This document shows positions 20,219 through 34,786 of a stretch of 38,859 nucleotides of DNA, one piece after another. The notes under the pieces are model-generated. The model saw nothing but the letters and a program-made list of their open reading frames with translations, made no database searches and was not told where the DNA came from. Both the position numbers and the translations under genes were made by a program. Position 1 is the stretch's first letter. The number at the start of each line of letters is the position of its first letter. Source of the DNA: Pseudomonadota bacterium (GTDB lineage Bacteria > Bdellovibrionota > UBA1018 > CAIMNF01); the NCBI GenBank assembly GCA_027486675.1, contig JAIXOQ010000014.1, positions 1-38,859 on the forward strand, written 5' to 3'.

Positions 20219-22714
20219 CTAAACCTCAAGGATTATGAAACCCAGGTCCAAGAACCATTTTCTGAGCCCTTCGTCCATCCCACTTGGCAGAAAGACGCCA
20301 ATCTGAAATGGTGGCAGGATCTTTGGAGTACCGATCGGTTGAAGATTCATGAGAAGTTTTCTGTATCCAGCCATTCGTATGAATTGTTCTTCGATGGTCC
20401 GATCCAGGTGTCCGTCCCCTTTCTTAAATCTGAGATCTGAGAACGTCATTGGTCTTGGATAGGTTTTAGTTTCAACAAGTACAGTCTTTCCATCTCTGTG
20501 GACAACCATGTCCCACTCTTTCTTCTCAAACCAATCCTGAAACGAAATATCTAAAGGTTTTTTATTCCGCTGTAATTCCTGAAGTAATGTCCCGAGTTCC
20601 GGTACACGATTCAGAATTGTAGTCTCAAGGTTTTTTGGGTTTTTATGCCGCCGACTCCAGAGACCGGAAAGTTCTAGGCTGAGCTTTTGACTCTTACTGA
20701 GATTCTTTGCCGGGGTTAGGGTCAGTTTGAGTTTTACGCCTATCTCCTCTACTCCACGAAACTGCAGCAATCCTTGGATTTCACCCAGTTGCCCTATTAA
20801 GAGCCTCTGAAATGTAGAAGAGAAATCCTGAGCATCCTCTAAAGAATGATCTGGACTCGACTTGATGCTTAAGGCGACCAGATTTTGATTATAGTTCTGC
20901 TCAAGTCTGATCAGGTCGGCCTGTAACGTGTCGCTGAGATTAGCTTTATTGATCTGAGTAAAAAGTTCAGATCGTACCGCCATGAGCTCCTGAAGGGTGC
21001 TATTGATTTGTGTGTGACTCAAGCCACTCAGGTCTGAGACTCGATTCATCTTTTGAAGCGCCAGCGTTGCTCTCAGTAATCCAGGATAGAGTGCACCAAT
21101 AGATGCTGACTCAGACGCTATATTCTGAGGGATTTGCATGAGAAAACTTTCAAACCGGGAAGCATGGACTTTGTCCTTCTTGTACAGGGCCGACAGGATT
21201 CTATTCTCAGGAGTATCTGAAGCGAATACTCGGCTTCTGCCGCTGGCAAGGTACTCGATCTCTTTTATGAAATCTGAGTTTAGGTGCTGAATTCTTTGCA
21301 GCATATTCTGTGTGCTATCGGATCGGATCAAGTTGGATTGTACTAGTTTCTCGGTCTGCTCAGCGTTGTATAACGCTTCCCGAGAGATGGTTTTCACTTT
21401 GTTGAACAAGGACTCCGTGCTGATCAAAGGGGTTAACTCACGGATGATATCTGATCGTTTCGCAGAGATTTCTTTGATCCTTGAAAGGACCGACTCAGTG
21501 CTGATCACTGAATGGTTTTGTGCCGCTTGCAGTAACAGGGATTTAAAGGCAGAAAGCTTTTCCTGTACTGGATTCAGATTTAGATTTTTCGGAAGGGTTT
21601 CTGACAGGGTCTCCAGCTGCTCTAAGGTCGCTTTCTCCATTTGGACCTGATTATTGAAGGCTTCCTTGGCTCGTTCAATATTACGTAATTTCTCAAGAAG
21701 TTCTGATTCTGCAATAGTGATGGCATTTTGAAAGCGTTCCGTTTCTTTGCGGAATCCACTGCGTTCTGCATCTTGAGCGAGCTCTTCACGCAGAAGCTTC
21801 CATTCTTTTGATAACTCTTGTGCATAGGAGTCCTCCGCACTCTCGGGTATCGGGTTTTGAACGGTCTTCTTTGCGCGAGCAAGGGCGTCAATCTGTTGCT
21901 GAGTCGGCCTTTCGGTGTAAAAGCCTTTGAGTTTTTCTGCTGGCTCTGGATTCTTTTTTTCAATCCGAGTCAAAGTGGATTCAGTCTTAACTTGTGGCTT
22001 TGGTGTAGAGGCTTCTTTGTCGGCTAAAAGTGCAGCTTCCCTGTAAGCAGCTAGTCTTGAGGGCTTACGAACGGAATCCAAATTAGGCTCTTTAATCTGG
22101 ACGGATATATTTTTTGCGTAGGGCACCTTAATTGCGCCCTTAAGATTATCTCCAAACTGTTTCGTGTAGTCTTGGATCATCTGTACGGCAGTCATCCTCG
22201 CCTGGTGGTCCCCGCTGGTCTCATTTAGAGTTTGCTCGATGGGGCCTATCCTGTTTTCAAATGTGTCGCCAAGAGTTTTTAGCGATTGAGCAAGTCGTGG
22301 TTCACGTGTTGCGCCCAGGGTCGCAACTAACGCTGCCTCACGAATTGCTTTTAGGTTCTTCGCAAATTGAATTGTGGCTTTTTCATCGAGGTCCTGAAGC
22401 GGGATCTTTGGAAGGACATTAGCCTTCAGTGAATCCACGATCTGAACGAGGGATGCATCCGCTTTGGCTAAAGAACCTGGAAGAAGGATTTCCTGGGCCG
22501 GAAAGGCTTCGGGTTTTAGCTTTTGGAAATTGGGTTCGTGAGGGGACTGTGTGCCTAGATGTTTTATGTATCTCTGCCATGCGTCCTCGGGTTGGACTGA
22601 TTGATTCCGTAATGCATTTAGTACCGGTTCTAGCGGGTCTGACGGGCACCTCGCAGATAACGGGCAGGTCTGAATGAAGATCAAAAGGACCGATGCTCGA
22701 AGGAAATAACTCAC
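20219..22714 (-). CDS. Secreted coiled-coil protein with C-terminal PD-(D/E)XK-like nuclease motif
   Basis: No overall family is recognised for this 831-residue protein. It starts with a signal peptide (MSYFLRASVLLIFIQTCPLSA); the following ARC is not a good lipobox. Residues 30-690 are almost entirely helical, charged and Glu/Gln/Lys/Leu-rich, with a near-repeat ISTESVLSRIKEIS and ISTESLFNKVKTIS 27 residues apart. The C-terminal 110 residues look like a globular PD-(D/E)XK fold: EKKEWDMVVHRDGKTVLVETKTYPRP, with Asp735, Glu748 and Lys750 as candidate metal and catalytic residues, and a following helix EEQFIRMAGYRKLL with Gln777 and Tyr784. A secreted nuclease is my inference. It stands alone between a channel gene (convergent) and the foldback and tRNA. 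Confidence 0.7.
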   Translation of the reverse strand: MSYFLRASVLLIFIQTCPLSARCPSDPLEPVLNALRNQSVQPEDAWQRYIKHLGTQSPHEPNFQKLKPEAFPAQEILLPGSLAKADASLVQIVDSLKANVLPKIPLQDLDEKATIQFAKNLKAIREAALVATLGATREPRLAQSLKTLGDTFENRIGPIEQTLNETSGDHQARMTAVQMIQDYTKQFGDNLKGAIKVPYAKNISVQIKEPNLDSVRKPSRLAAYREAALLADKEASTPKPQVKTESTLTRIEKKNPEPAEKLKGFYTERPTQQQIDALARAKKTVQNPIPESAEDSYAQELSKEWKLLREELAQDAERSGFRKETERFQNAITIAESELLEKLRNIERAKEAFNNQVQMEKATLEQLETLSETLPKNLNLNPVQEKLSAFKSLLLQAAQNHSVISTESVLSRIKEISAKRSDIIRELTPLISTESLFNKVKTISREALYNAEQTEKLVQSNLIRSDSTQNMLQRIQHLNSDFIKEIEYLASGRSRVFASDTPENRILSALYKKDKVHASRFESFLMQIPQNIASESASIGALYPGLLRATLALQKMNRVSDLSGLSHTQINSTLQELMAVRSELFTQINKANLSDTLQADLIRLEQNYNQNLVALSIKSSPDHSLEDAQDFSSTFQRLLIGQLGEIQGLLQFRGVEEIGVKLKLTLTPAKNLSKSQKLSLELSGLWSRRHKNPKNLETTILNRVPELGTLLQELQRNKKPLDISFQDWFEKKEWDMVVHRDGKTVLVETKTYPRPMTFSDLRFKKGDGHLDRTIEEQFIRMAGYRKLLMNLQPIGTPKILPPFQIGVFLPSGMDEGLRKWFLDLGFIILEV

Positions 22715-22809
22715 TCTTTAATTATGGTTCTTGTGGTTCAAGATTCCATGAGTCCTATAGCCAAGGCTCTGACGATCGCCCGCCCCCGTCTCACCACGGC
22801 CCAGCCTTA

Positions 22810-22930
22810 TTCATCCATCTAATATTGTCTTCTGGTTTCGAGGGCTAAAAGAGCGTCGCATGGATGCGACGTGATCTGCCCACGGAGGGGTGCCGCCCGA
22901 GAGACCAGAAGACAATATTAGATGGATGAA
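22810..22930. repeat. 121-bp foldback element with perfect 27-bp inverted arms
   Basis: The left arm is 22810-22836 (begins TTCATCCATCTAATATTG) and the right arm, 22904-22930, is its exact reverse complement. The 67-base centre carries a second perfect hairpin, CGTCGCAT at 22854-22861 and ATGCGACG at 22864-22871. There is no open reading frame of note, no T-run on either side and no clear target-site duplication. It lies seven bases after the CCA end of tRNA-Thr on the minus strand. It could be a MITE-like element, a structured RNA or a processing signal. Confidence 0.9.
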
Positions 22931-22937
22931 GAAAAGG

Positions 22938-29183: not shown

Positions 29184-29846
29184 ATGGGATTTTTTGAATT
29201 CTTAAAAGGAAATCTACTGCACGTACTGCCTAATCTGGGCCTTGCAGCAGCAGCGATCGTGATCATCTTTGAACGCGTACACGCACTGTACAAGCGGTAC
29301 GTTGTTGAAAATGAAGATCAGCTCTTGCAACAGGTGCGTTCGACCATCATTAAAGATGGCCCGGATGCAGCAAGACAGGTTGTTGCGGCCGTGAAGCACA
29401 CTCCTATTGGGACTGTGCTTGATGAAGCCTTGGTCCGGGCATCTCTTCCCGAAGAGATGATTCGTGACGGAATTCAAATCCAAATCGGCCGTCTGTCAAA
29501 ACTGATTCAGAAGAAAACAGGTTTCCTATCCATGATTGCAAACGTTGCAACTTTGATAGGTCTCTTCGGAACAATTTTGGGTCTGATCAGCAGCTTTGAA
29601 GCTGTTGCTCACGCGGACCCTCAACAGAAGGCAACCCTGCTCTCAAACGGGATCGCTGTGGCCATGAACGCGACAATGCTGGGTCTTGGTATCGCCATTC
29701 CTTGCATGATCGCCTACAGCATTCTCATGAATCGCTCCAATAAACTTGTGAGTGATCTTGAAGATGCAGGGCTTCTAGTGATTGACGCACTTCGTTCACG
29801 ATTCGTGGGCTCAGTGGATGGTCCAGGCAAGAAAGATGTAGCATGA
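29184..29846 (+). CDS. MotA/TolQ/ExbB proton channel family protein (AglR-like)
   Basis: A 220-residue inner-membrane protein of the ExbB/TolQ/MotA family, which forms the stator ring of proton-driven machines. It has an N-terminal membrane helix (LLHVLPNLGLAAAAIVIIFERV), a cytoplasmic helical section and the two conserved C-terminal helices MIANVATLIGLFGTILGLISSFEAVA and GIAVAMNATMLGLGIAIPCMIAYSIL. The family signatures TLIGLFGTILGL and the ALxxTxxGLxxAIP-like stretch are present. Its stop overlaps the next ExbD-type gene by ATGA. The neighbours (two ExbD genes, TPR and TonB-like proteins) match the AglRQS motor of gliding rather than iron-uptake ExbB. Confidence 0.92.
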   Translation: MGFFEFLKGNLLHVLPNLGLAAAAIVIIFERVHALYKRYVVENEDQLLQQVRSTIIKDGPDAARQVVAAVKHTPIGTVLDEALVRASLPEEMIRDGIQIQIGRLSKLIQKKTGFLSMIANVATLIGLFGTILGLISSFEAVAHADPQQKATLLSNGIAVAMNATMLGLGIAIPCMIAYSILMNRSNKLVSDLEDAGLLVIDALRSRFVGSVDGPGKKDVA

Positions 29847-30253
29847 AAATCTCGGATTCGGGCTCCCATGACGTGGAGCTCAACTTAGCACCCATTATCG
29901 ACTGTTTGACTGTGCTGATCACATTTATGTTGATCAGTGCGTCATTCCTTTCGATCGGAATTTTGGAAGCCTCAGTGGCTTCACCTAATTCTAATGCTAA
30001 GCCACCCGAAGTAGCTGCCGAACTTAAAGTCGGTGGTCAGGGTGCTGAGCTAGTCGTGACAGGAAAAATCTCATTTAAGCATGCTGTGACAGCTGACACT
30101 TTGGCACGAGAGCTCAGTGAGTTAAAAAGTAAGGGCGTCGACCAAGTCATTTTCACTCCCTCAGACGATGTTCCATTTGAGTCCTTAGTCCAATGGACCG
30201 ATAGGATTCGTGCAGTCATCCCTGCAGTCTCATACGGAGGCATCGGCCAGTGA
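29843..30253 (+). CDS. ExbD/TolR family stator protein (AglQ/AglS-like), first copy
   Basis: A 136-residue single-pass protein of the ExbD/TolR family. The N-terminal VELNLAPIIDCLTVLITFMLISASF contains the membrane helix with the proton-binding Asp (IID). The periplasmic domain ends in VIFTPSDDVPFESLVQWTDRIRAV. It works with the ExbB-type protein encoded just upstream (ATGA overlap) and with the next ExbD-type protein. In the AglRQS motor there is likewise one ExbB and two ExbD subunits; I cannot say which of AglQ and AglS this corresponds to. Confidence 0.9.
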   Translation: MKISDSGSHDVELNLAPIIDCLTVLITFMLISASFLSIGILEASVASPNSNAKPPEVAAELKVGGQGAELVVTGKISFKHAVTADTLARELSELKSKGVDQVIFTPSDDVPFESLVQWTDRIRAVIPAVSYGGIGQ

Positions 30254-30732
30254 AAAAGCGTTCACGTCTGCAAAACGAAGAAGTCAGTCTCCAAATCACT
30301 TCGATGGCGGATGTGTTCGTGATCCTTTTGGTATTTCTTCTGAAAAGCGCCGCAACCGGGCTATCCGTATCCATGAGTCAGAATATGACTCTTCCCAAAA
30401 GTGTCTCGGCGGCTGAAACAGCCAAAAGGCTTCTGACAATAGAGATCAACAACAGTGGCGTGTATTTAGAAGGCGCTGCCCAGACCAAGTTCGATGGCGG
30501 TCGCTATCCGGCTGGTAATACTGGCGTTGTCTTTTCTGACTTACAAAATGGCCTCAAAGAGCTCAGGGCAAAACAAGCCTACATTGAGAAAAAAGGGGGT
30601 TCTCCCACAAATTCAACAGAGCTCATCGTTCTTGCAGACAAGCTCGTTCCTTACCGGATTATCAAAAGAGTTCTACTTACGGCGTCCTTGGAGGGCTACA
30701 CAGATGCGAAGCTTGCTGCTACTCGCGATTAG
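30250..30732 (+). CDS. ExbD/TolR family stator protein (AglQ/AglS-like), second copy
   Basis: The second ExbD-type protein, 160 residues, starts with GTG in a GTGA overlap with the first. The N-terminus is basic (KKRSRLQNEE), followed by VSLQITSMADVFVILLVFLLKSAATG with the membrane Asp. The periplasmic part ends with LIVLADKLVPYRIIKRVLLTASLEGYTDAKLA. It differs from the first copy in length and sequence, so the two are not recent duplicates. The last 29 bases overlap the signal-peptide start of the next gene. Confidence 0.9.
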   Translation: MKKRSRLQNEEVSLQITSMADVFVILLVFLLKSAATGLSVSMSQNMTLPKSVSAAETAKRLLTIEINNSGVYLEGAAQTKFDGGRYPAGNTGVVFSDLQNGLKELRAKQAYIEKKGGSPTNSTELIVLADKLVPYRIIKRVLLTASLEGYTDAKLAATRD

Positions 30733-33460
30733 CCTAATTCTCTTGGGCAATACTGCCTACGCTGCTCCTAAGTCTTCTGAGCGTCAGGATCGCCTGGTCG
30801 ATATCGTAGCCTATGAGTCTCAGGACCGTGCGGAAAGATCTCTGATTCTTAGAATTGAAAAACTAGGTGGTACAAAAGCGGCTCCAGACTTTTCAGTTAG
30901 GCTTGCTGACCTGTTAAAAGAGAAAGTCGACGTAGGTTTTCGCCTTCAAGGGCATTACCCCAAATACAAAGACAAATATAAAAAAGACTTAATCGAGTGG
31001 CTTAAGGTTTCTCGTACTGTGCTGCCCTACATTACCCAAGCCGAAGGTGCGGACCGGATGCAGTTCTACATTGGGTCAGCACTCGACGAGATGCTAGATA
31101 AGAAAAATGCTCTGAGAGAGTATATCGTCTTTCTAAATACCTACAAAGAGAGTGATTTCAGGAAGCCGTCGATTATGGCTGCTACCATGATCCAATTCAA
31201 TAATGGTGATCACCTCGGAGTCCTGAAGTGGATTGACGAAGTCGCAGAAGCAGATGGCAGCCCATATCAAGTACATGCCTTATACAGAAGAGCATGGTCG
31301 CAGTTTAATGTTCGTGAGTTTAGGCTTGCGATTAAAAGTCTTCATAAAATCCTAAAAGTCCCAAATAACATGCTCACCGAACTTGCGTGCCGGGACCAGG
31401 CCAGTTTTGCAGGTGAAGCCATAGAGCGTCGTGCTGAGTCTCTGAGCGTTAAAGAATCGTTAGAGATGATGAAAGACTCGTGTACAACTCCAGAAAACTT
31501 ACAAAAAAGCCAAGTGTGGTTAGTAAAAATTCTTCGGTCTAGAAAAATGGCACCGGAGATGGAGCAGTGGCTCGATTGGTCTAGAAGCCGAGGATCGAAA
31601 ATCGCGTGGCTCGACGGAGCCGAGGTTGTCTCAGAATTTTACTTCAATAACAGAAACTGGAAAGCATGGCTTGCTCTTCAAGGTCGCGCTGGGGAAGAAC
31701 TCAAGGACGAGCGGAGTGCTACATATGTACGCCACCTCGAGGGGCGACTGCAGGAGCTTCGTGACGCAATCCTAAAGAATAAACAGGCTACAGATGTTAA
31801 CTCCCTGGTTGACGTGTACCACAAAGGGAATCTGATCTGGATTCCAATGCTCAGTGAAGTCAAGCTTCAGGCCCGTGCATGGTGGAATATGGGGGAGCTC
31901 TATTCTGCCCTCACTCAGTGGGCTCAGGCCACAAATGCATACGCTCAAAGCGAGGTTTTAGAAGCCTCGGTGGATACAACATACCGAAAACTTTCGTCTC
32001 GTACGCAGGAGCTCGTCAAAGACCTAGGGCGCCCTGAACTTAAGGCGCGAAAGTATGTAGCCAAGGCAGAAGGTGAACAGAGAGTTAAAGATTTAGAGGT
32101 GTGGTTGAATGGCATTTCAACCAGCGACCGTAACGCCGATTGGCGCAAATTTTGGTATGTCGCACGTGAGTATAAAGTTGCCCGTGGTGTCTCTCAAGAT
32201 GTGATTCAAGAGATTGAGGAGCGACTGAAAGAAGATCTCTCTGACTTAAGTGATAAGGACAGGAAACGTTGGGTGTCCTTTTGTGTTGAGACGCATGTAC
32301 TCAATACGGAGTGGCAACGCGTAGTTGAGCTAAGACCGCTATTTAAAGATACCGATAAAGATCTGAGCACAGTCGCCCTCCAGTCTGAGGTCAAAATTAT
32401 CGCGGAGGCTAAACTCAAGAATGACCCAGAATGGATTGAGAGGGGTCGCGCACTGGTTGAGGCATACAGAGAGTCACCTGAAGTCAAAGCGCTTCGAATG
32501 TGGCTGATTGAGGATGATCTCAAGGCGGGCAAGGAAGATTACGTACGCCAAGCTTTAGGGCAGATCGAGAGTCAATACGGTGCAGAGAGTTTAGGCGTGA
32601 ATGAGTGGGAACTTCGCCTTCACCTAGATCAAAAGAGTGGGAATCGCCAAGAGTCTATGCGCGCACTTGAGGCTCTGGCTCAGAAAGATCCGAAGAAGTA
32701 CTTGGATGGCTTCCGATCGTTGGTCTACGCCTACAATTATCCGATGAAGAAGTGTTTTGCAGACATCTGTGAGTCTATTAAAAAGTGGTCATCCAAAGAG
32801 TCAGACCAGAAGATCCTGAAGTCCTCGTTTGCAGAGTTCCACAAGCGTCCGAAGGAGTTTCGTCAATGGCTTAAGGAGTGGAAGGCATTGCCGCCACTTG
32901 CTCAGATGGCCAGATTTATCGATAGGCAGCCGGTCGTTGAGGAATGGCTGACTCAGATGCGTAGAGACGCAAAAAAGTATGTTCCTGTGAAACGCCTCAC
33001 CGAAAAATCCCTCCTCAGGAGAATTGAGTGGATTTGGGAGATCGAAAGATCCACAAAGGGCCTCTTTGAGCTTCCGTGGACCCAAGGCCGATCTGCTGCC
33101 CTCGCTGCGGTTGCTGATATCTATAAAGATTTCGAGGATGAAGTCAGTGTGGCCCAGCCTTCTTCGGATACCCCACAAGAGCTGCCGACGCTTCGTAAAC
33201 AGTTAAATGCAAAAAGAGACGCGATGATTGCTGCCCAAAAAGGACTCGCAGAAGAGTTATTGAAACAAACAGAGAAGAATAAAAAATGGGCGAACAGCTT
33301 ACCTTCAGATAAGCGACGTGCTTTAGAGAGCAAAGTGGTTTCAACACCAAACGAGCTAGCTCAGCTCATTATTGAAGCTCAAGAGCTAGGGGCAAAAGAA
33401 TTCTTCGCAGAAGCATGGATCGGTTCAAAGAAAAACCGACGTTTGGCGGGAGGGAATTAA
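30704..33460 (+). CDS. Secreted helical-repeat protein, GltD/GltE-like by position
   Basis: A 918-residue periplasmic protein. I start at the ATG at 30704 because it begins a clean signal peptide (MRSLLLLAISLILLGNTAYA); an earlier in-frame start would add about 70 residues of foreign frame. The rest is helical and charged, with TPR-like pairs such as YRRAWSQFNVREFRLAIKSLHKILKVP and MGELYSALTQWAQATNAYAQSEVLE, so helical repeats are likely through most of the length. In Myxococcus, GltD and GltE are TPR proteins of the gliding complex; this is similar in kind, but homology was not tested. It overlaps the ExbD gene by 29 bases. Confidence 0.75.
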   Translation: MRSLLLLAISLILLGNTAYAAPKSSERQDRLVDIVAYESQDRAERSLILRIEKLGGTKAAPDFSVRLADLLKEKVDVGFRLQGHYPKYKDKYKKDLIEWLKVSRTVLPYITQAEGADRMQFYIGSALDEMLDKKNALREYIVFLNTYKESDFRKPSIMAATMIQFNNGDHLGVLKWIDEVAEADGSPYQVHALYRRAWSQFNVREFRLAIKSLHKILKVPNNMLTELACRDQASFAGEAIERRAESLSVKESLEMMKDSCTTPENLQKSQVWLVKILRSRKMAPEMEQWLDWSRSRGSKIAWLDGAEVVSEFYFNNRNWKAWLALQGRAGEELKDERSATYVRHLEGRLQELRDAILKNKQATDVNSLVDVYHKGNLIWIPMLSEVKLQARAWWNMGELYSALTQWAQATNAYAQSEVLEASVDTTYRKLSSRTQELVKDLGRPELKARKYVAKAEGEQRVKDLEVWLNGISTSDRNADWRKFWYVAREYKVARGVSQDVIQEIEERLKEDLSDLSDKDRKRWVSFCVETHVLNTEWQRVVELRPLFKDTDKDLSTVALQSEVKIIAEAKLKNDPEWIERGRALVEAYRESPEVKALRMWLIEDDLKAGKEDYVRQALGQIESQYGAESLGVNEWELRLHLDQKSGNRQESMRALEALAQKDPKKYLDGFRSLVYAYNYPMKKCFADICESIKKWSSKESDQKILKSSFAEFHKRPKEFRQWLKEWKALPPLAQMARFIDRQPVVEEWLTQMRRDAKKYVPVKRLTEKSLLRRIEWIWEIERSTKGLFELPWTQGRSAALAAVADIYKDFEDEVSVAQPSSDTPQELPTLRKQLNAKRDAMIAAQKGLAEELLKQTEKNKKWANSLPSDKRRALESKVVSTPNELAQLIIEAQELGAKEFFAEAWIGSKKNRRLAGGN

Positions 33461-33461
33461 T

Positions 33462-33707
33462 ATGATGAAAACATTTATTCTCTTTCTTCTACTTGTCTCT
33501 GCGGCTCCAACGACCGCCACAGCTAAAAGGTCCTCCGTTATTGATTTCGAAGATGATGTAGTTGAGGGCGTAAATCGGTTACCACTGGATTCGCTATCAC
33601 AGCTTTCTGATAAGAATCGGTTAAAAAAACGCTACCTCTATTTAAAACGTAAGGGCTTCGCAACAGAGTTGCGTGAAACCCAGGCTTGGATGGAGGAACA
33701 GCTGTGA
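33462..33707 (+). CDS. Small secreted CglF-like protein
   Basis: An 81-residue protein with signal peptide (MMKTFILFLLLVSAAPTTATA) and a short mature part with VIDFEDDVVEGVNRLPLDSL. This D-F-E-x-D-V-x-E-G pattern resembles the myxobacterial small gliding protein CglF and its relatives, as I remember them; certainty is limited. The mature part also has a basic LKKRYLYLKRKGF stretch. It starts right after the TPR-like gene and overlaps the next gene by GTGA (33704-33707), with a GGAGGA inside its last codons serving that gene. Confidence 0.65.
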   Translation: MMKTFILFLLLVSAAPTTATAKRSSVIDFEDDVVEGVNRLPLDSLSQLSDKNRLKKRYLYLKRKGFATELRETQAWMEEQL

Positions 33708-34786
33708 TTCAACATCAAAAATACTGGGTCGTCTGCACGACGCACTCAGGACAGGTATTAAGATCTTACAGTTGGGGAGCAAAAGAACCCCTCGCCATTG
33801 GGACACAAGCGCGGAAGCTCACACTCGAGCGCACTTCTGAAGGATTTCGCGTTCGCGACTGGACCTCCGGCCGAATGATTCAAGGCAGCAATGCTCTGGA
33901 CCTCGGCATGATGCGAGTCAATGTGCGCGAACAAAAAGCGATTTTGATGCCCAAGCTTGAGAATCATCGGCCGCTCGACTGGCTTGTAGATGATGAAGCA
34001 AGTGAGAGAGAAAACGATAAAAAGGGCGCACTCGCCTTTCTATTACTGCTTCTTGTCTTCTTGGGGACCTCGTTCTTCATTCAGCGTATGGAAGAGAAAG
34101 ACAAAGATGTTATTCCAGAAAAATATGTCCAGGTCGTGATTAAAGCTGTGAAGCAAGACCAGCAATCAGCTGCACGTGCAAACAGCGCCTCATCTGCATC
34201 AAAGACCGTTGCAAAGCAGGCGCGTTCGTTAATTAAGGGCGGACTTCAATCGATTTTAAAGCAAGGCAACCTGACTCGAGGTATGGGCGGATCCTTAGGC
34301 GCAATGATGAAGGGCATTCCTTTGCCTTCACAAGCGATGAGCTGGAAGTCGACCGAAAGTGCTGAAACTGCAAGTGTAGCAAGTATTTCAAAAGGTAAAG
34401 GATTTGGTCGGGGTACCGACACGGTCGCAGTCGCTGGACAAGGTCAGACCTTTGTATCGATGGATTGGAAAGAAAGCGAAGTGGACGAAGGACTCACTAA
34501 GGAAGAGGTCGGGCGTGTGATTCACGCGCATCAAGCAGAGATTCGTTACTGCTATGAGTCCTCCTTAGTGCACAACGCAGGCCTAAAAGGCCGCGTATTG
34601 ATCGCCTTTGTCATTGCTGGGTCTGGGCAGGTGTCGCGGGCAACGGTAAAAGAAAGCACCGCGAAAGATGATCGACTAGAAAGTTGTGTGACTTCGAAGT
34701 TAAAGTCTTGGGCTTTTCCAAAACCAAGGGGTGGGATCAACGTGGCGGTAGGTTACCCATTCAATTTTCAATCGTTAGGAACGTGA
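33704..34786 (+). CDS. GltG-like protein with AgmX/PglI (TonB-like) C-terminal domain
   Basis: I start at the GTG at 33704 (GTGA overlap, GGAGGA upstream), giving 360 residues. Residues 1-100 are cytoplasmic and beta-rich, like an FHA-type domain (LERTSEGFRVRDWTSGRMIQG). A membrane helix follows near residues 107-125 (ALAFLLLLLVFLGTSFFI), then a periplasmic Ser/Ala/Gly-rich linker. The C-terminal 100 residues are the AgmX/PglI domain: GLTKEEVGRVIHAHQAEIRYCYE with Cys283, GRVLIAFVIAGSGQVSRATV and LESCVTSKLKSWAFPKP with Cys328, a likely disulfide. This layout is that of the Myxococcus GltG/GltJ class, thought to pass force from the stator to the outer membrane. Confidence 0.88.
   Translation: MIQHQKYWVVCTTHSGQVLRSYSWGAKEPLAIGTQARKLTLERTSEGFRVRDWTSGRMIQGSNALDLGMMRVNVREQKAILMPKLENHRPLDWLVDDEASERENDKKGALAFLLLLLVFLGTSFFIQRMEEKDKDVIPEKYVQVVIKAVKQDQQSAARANSASSASKTVAKQARSLIKGGLQSILKQGNLTRGMGGSLGAMMKGIPLPSQAMSWKSTESAETASVASISKGKGFGRGTDTVAVAGQGQTFVSMDWKESEVDEGLTKEEVGRVIHAHQAEIRYCYESSLVHNAGLKGRVLIAFVIAGSGQVSRATVKESTAKDDRLESCVTSKLKSWAFPKPRGGINVAVGYPFNFQSLGT

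Follow-up and report, generated by a model that had tools for sequence, protein, structure and literature searches.

The gene at 20219..22714 (minus strand) of the window, by which we mean the whole 38,859-nt stretch of DNA analysed here, probably encodes an exported, envelope-held nuclease, putative in its activity, of a PD-(D/E)XK family of Bdellovibrionota that as yet has no name. Homology, conservation over 34 family members and modelling together back the PD-(D/E)XK-like C-terminal domain that a first-pass annotation of this DNA had proposed. That annotation had linked the domain to a predator effector or a contact-dependent toxin, and both readings are weighed below.

Gene structure and predicted export

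The whole gene specifies 831 amino acids from a GTG start, and a stop two codons upstream of this GTG closes the reading frame; its product is predicted to be exported and to end in a PD-(D/E)XK-type domain. Residues 1-21 (22652..22714, minus strand) are predicted from hydropathy and by eye to form a Sec signal peptide; hydropathy reaches its maximum at residues 3-14 of the hydrophobic N-terminus, and a candidate cleavage site between PLSA and RC can be read by eye. Residues 33-104 (22403..22618, minus strand) are homologous to the segment that comes right after the signal peptide of L019, a paralogue in the same genome (local score 70 versus 29 +/- 5 for shuffled sequences; 0 of 2000 shuffles). 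Because a profile of the family N-terminus does not match the 831-residue protein, it is this comparison with L019 that backs its N-terminal region. Nearly all complete family members start with a signal peptide or a lipobox, as judged by eye, the lipobox being found, for example, in L004, L002, L007, L012 and L045. The hydrophobic residues 3-14, the homology to the mature start of L019 and the signals in relatives agree with the signal peptide claimed in the first-pass annotation, and homology and anatomy make export of the protein likely. Cys23 (22646..22648, minus strand) is the sole cysteine of the predicted mature protein; when family members were compared, a cysteine was present shortly after the signal in 29 of the 34, and participation in a disulfide or dimer is a candidate role for it.

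Between these N-terminal elements and the C-terminal domain, residues about 300-620 (20855..21817, minus strand) are by composition poor in proline and glycine, rich in charge and helix-like, and are referred to here as an insert or stalk. The stretch is compatible with helices, and a coiled coil is a candidate structure for it. Some 650 helical residues had been claimed earlier; of these, only about 300 (roughly residues 300-620) have a clear helix-like character, and residues 22-300 contain about two dozen prolines. The stalk-type insert was not seen in relatives. Length varies within the family: in the 710-aa relative at L054:1957-4089, several hundred residues that form a different N-terminal extension precede both family regions. 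Comparison of the whole protein with Pfam, NCBIfam and PDB sequences gave no useful match, the whole-protein domain search found no known delivery domain, and 97 related genomes contained no full-length relative. A Pfam NOG1_N match was rejected, as its score was below its cut-off and its position lay in the helical stalk.

A C-terminal domain shared within the phylum

The C-terminal domain (residues 629-831; 20222..20830, minus strand), delimited by homology, conservation and models, is common to 33 further open reading frames of the phylum, nearly all with the same residues and most with a signal peptide or lipobox; the same domain occurs on other putatively secreted proteins of Bdellovibrionota, for which the first-pass annotation had advised a search. 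The last 194 residues, used as a BLAST query, recovered relatives within the phylum. These matches mixed true and false relatives, and L006, L008, L010 and L013-L018 were discarded as false. A first profile of eight relatives matched 45 of 369 genomes at an E-value of 0.01, and a wider profile, A2, matched 38 of 369 genomes of the phylum at 0.001, which makes the presence of the family patchy. Since both profiles contained the window sequence, all own-genome sequences were left out of another one, for which only other genomes supplied members; its match in the 831-residue protein covers residues 629-789 and scores 50 bits, no shuffle out of 2000 was hit, and it found all five copies of the genome with no other match in the window. 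Identity between the protein and its relatives is only about 20% overall. The named relatives belong to Halobacteriovorax marinus (by record name) and other Bacteriovoracales, and the genome of the window is, judged by kinship labels, from the same phylum, and from another class; a single scan of genome contigs with a narrow pattern returned seven loci, all in Bacteriovoracales. The viral contigs searched held no relative. As far as searched, the family may be restricted to Bdellovibrionota. PADLOC gave only weak matches, several of them to models that contain PD-(D/E)XK domains, and the Pfam NERD profile (PF08378) matched 13 of 32 members weakly, with one, L031, above the cut-off (25.3 versus 22.1 bits), and did not match the 831-residue protein itself.

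The signature of PD-(D/E)XK enzymes consists of a glutamate in the first helix, a D and an E-x-K, and the helix after this carries a Q. The Asp735 that ends EWD, the Glu748 and Lys750 of ETK and the Q777-x6-Y784 helix are all present as first described. Of the shuffles made from residues 690-831, 60% also contain a loose D-x9-20-[ED]xK pattern, and the motif by itself is weak evidence; when the upstream GxxGE (G641/E645) and the downstream Q are added, the extended pattern is found in 0.9% of shuffles. Conservation was then read over the 34 members for G641-x3-E645 in the first core helix (20780..20794, minus strand; G641 in 32 and E645 in 33), E733-W-D735 (20510..20518, minus strand; E733 in 33 and D735 in 34), E748-T-K750 (20465..20473, minus strand; E748 in 33 and K750 in 34) and Q777, which lies in the helix that follows the E-x-K strand (20384..20386, minus strand; 32). 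Read from the alignment, the conserved E, D, E-x-K and Q are the PD-(D/E)XK enzyme pattern. The glutamates missing at positions 645, 733 and 748 all belong to one own-genome copy, L051. Orthologues lacking Asp735, Glu748 or Lys750 had been named as evidence against a nuclease, and among the 34 members only this degenerate own-genome paralogue lacks one of the three, the equivalent of Glu748.

Predicted structure

An AlphaFold2 run with eight sequences on residues 610-831 produced a model with the element order alpha-beta-(helices)-beta-beta-alpha-beta-alpha-beta (pLDDT 59, pTM 0.58). The model of the 365-aa Halobacteriovorax relative L065 has the same order of elements at a mean pLDDT of 79.6, mostly 85-95 in the core, and its N-terminal region is all-helical. 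An alpha-beta-beta-beta-alpha-beta core is seen in both models, with moderate confidence in that of the window protein. When both models were compared with the PDB by Foldseek, the top matches were predominantly PD-(D/E)XK proteins, among them AF1548, NucS/EndoMS, OkrAI, Cdn1/Can2, Avs4, BspD6I, McrC and HincII; the best was AF1548, with an E-value of 0.0028 and a probability of 1.00, and none reached an E-value of 0.001. Agreement among these matches, each weak alone, makes the fold likely, and the predicted fold is restriction-endonuclease-like, as the first-pass annotation had proposed.

The nearest solved structures, AF1548 (1y88), NucS/EndoMS, McrC and Can2/Cdn1, are alike in core order and in the positions of the E, D and E-x-K. 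These proteins are cytoplasmic; in contrast, the 831-residue protein is predicted to be exported, and in its domain the first core strand is separated from the D strand by a helical insert of some 70 residues.

Paralogues and genomic context

The genome contains exactly five detectable and divergent copies, namely the window gene, L019, a tandem pair on contig 31 and L051. L019 keeps the full motif; in the tandem pair, the first copy has V for Q and the second is without a signal peptide in its frame. Two of these copies look decayed, L051:3201-4337 in having lost glutamates at active-site positions and L050:5303-6238 in having no signal peptide in its frame. A tree unites the five own-genome copies (97/94) on long branches, and the 831-residue protein evolves fast, judging by its long branch. 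Other genomes carry one copy, rarely two: one copy per genome was found in Halobacteriovorax, and in other genera there is mostly one copy, whose locus can be shared by members of the genus, for example beside a glutamyl-tRNA-synthetase-like gene (named by eye from its sequence start). When the loci of members were compared, no neighbour was common to different genera.

The window gene lies by itself, with tRNA-Thr on one side and a convergent ion-channel gene on the other, and a 2-hydroxyacid dehydrogenase gene is also among its neighbours. None of these resembles an immunity gene, in line with the earlier observation, and no delivery gene was seen beside it. Some further features were recorded. 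Between tRNA-Thr and the gene, positions 22807-22933 of the window hold a 39-nt inverted repeat (90%) with a 49-nt spacer and an inner hairpin; its RNA fold has -60 kcal/mol and a z-score of -11.4, and no other site in the genome matches the 21-nt core of its arm, with up to 3 mismatches allowed. At 29184-34786, genes for a MotA/ExbB and an ExbD protein are clustered with those for a TPR protein of 988 aa and for one whose C-terminus is TonB-like; the cluster may specify an energised machine of the envelope. In addition, L055:4937-6079 encodes a 380-aa exported protein that is convergent with a family member, similar to it in length and provided with a cysteine after its signal, and is a non-member by profile.

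Discussion

We favour a model whereby the Sec signal peptide takes the protein out of the cytoplasm, as homology and anatomy suggest, and the N-terminal and stalk regions would serve in envelope retention or multimer formation. From the fold and the conserved residues, the C-terminal domain would bind a divalent metal via Asp735, Glu748 and probably Glu645, with Lys750, and may hydrolyse DNA or RNA outside the cell's own cytoplasm. Its most likely substrate would be foreign nucleic acid arriving at the envelope or in the surroundings, whether DNA of the environment or of prey, as a food source, or DNA of phages or plasmids on entry. We propose that an immunity protein is unneeded because the chromosome is spared by location.

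Several known systems resemble parts of this arrangement. Nuc2 of Staphylococcus aureus has the staphylococcal nuclease fold, which is different from PD-(D/E)XK. It is an analogue in the way it works, as an extracellular nuclease held at the cell surface (PMC3994088). SmdA of S. aureus is likewise anchored in the membrane and has a long helix and, at its C-terminus, a NERD domain, although this domain is cytoplasmic and without several of the conserved NERD residues (PMC9040797). Bd0934, Bd3507, Bd1244 and Bd1934 of Bdellovibrio are exported nucleases of the same phylum (PMC7925074, PMC3593177) and belong to a different family, being placed in the endonuclease I superfamily (PMC3593177). The PoNe effectors of type VI secretion systems are PD-(D/E)XK DNases that act outside the producing cell (PMC6688995), and differ in having an immunity protein and a T6SS, neither of which is seen beside the window gene.

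A role in predation, in which the cell would export the nuclease, release it into prey or present it to them, and in this way break down prey DNA, deserves consideration and is in our judgement unlikely. The family occurs in a record named for Halobacteriovorax marinus, of a predator genus, and Bdellovibrio exports nucleases, of another family, during predation (PMC7925074, PMC3593177); against this, the family is patchily distributed, the lipobox of Halobacteriovorax-type members suggests that they are probably cell-attached, and no delivery genes adjoin. It is more doubtful still that the protein has lost catalysis and, keeping the fold only, serves a structural or DNA-binding role. The long branch would suit such a fate, as would the state of two sister copies in the genome, one of them degenerate and the other truncated; SmdA offers a precedent in that proteins with NERD-type domains may have non-nuclease roles (PMC9040797), but the window copy retains all canonical residues despite its low identity to relatives. 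The moderate confidence of its own model, the long branch and the sister copy with lost active-site residues are nevertheless caveats to the nuclease reading.

The stalk followed by a C-terminal PD-(D/E)XK domain, together with five divergent copies in one genome, also recalls toxins of the CDI or T6SS/PoNe type, contact-dependent or polymorphic, whose C-terminal toxin domain can be swapped. Our data disfavour this reading, of which the first-pass annotation had suggested the contact-dependent form, and render it very improbable: beside the missing immunity-like gene, the neighbours of members vary or resemble housekeeping genes, with none shared between genera, and the N-terminal profile matches only family members among the open reading frames examined, so that no domain swapping is seen. 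Finally, a true start downstream, at the first in-frame ATG near codon 174, would give a cytoplasmic nuclease and could be entertained in that the GTG has no clear ribosome site, but it is highly improbable given the homology of residues 33-104 to the mature N-terminus of exported L019 and a GC content by codon position that is similar from residue 1 onward.

Within the preferred reading of an exported, envelope-held nuclease, we speculate further, and with considerable doubt, that an envelope-tethered and phylum-restricted family has undergone fast expansion and diversification in this lineage, where it would act on foreign DNA, of prey or of entering phages or plasmids, with the stalk providing reach and the conserved cysteine pairing two molecules. 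The nucleases already studied as exported in the phylum are of another family, and the present one is unnamed in the libraries searched. An exported and often lipid-anchored PD-(D/E)XK family would supply candidate enzymes for DNA digestion outside the predator's cytoplasm, and Halobacteriovorax, single-copy and culturable, provides a direct test system for the family.
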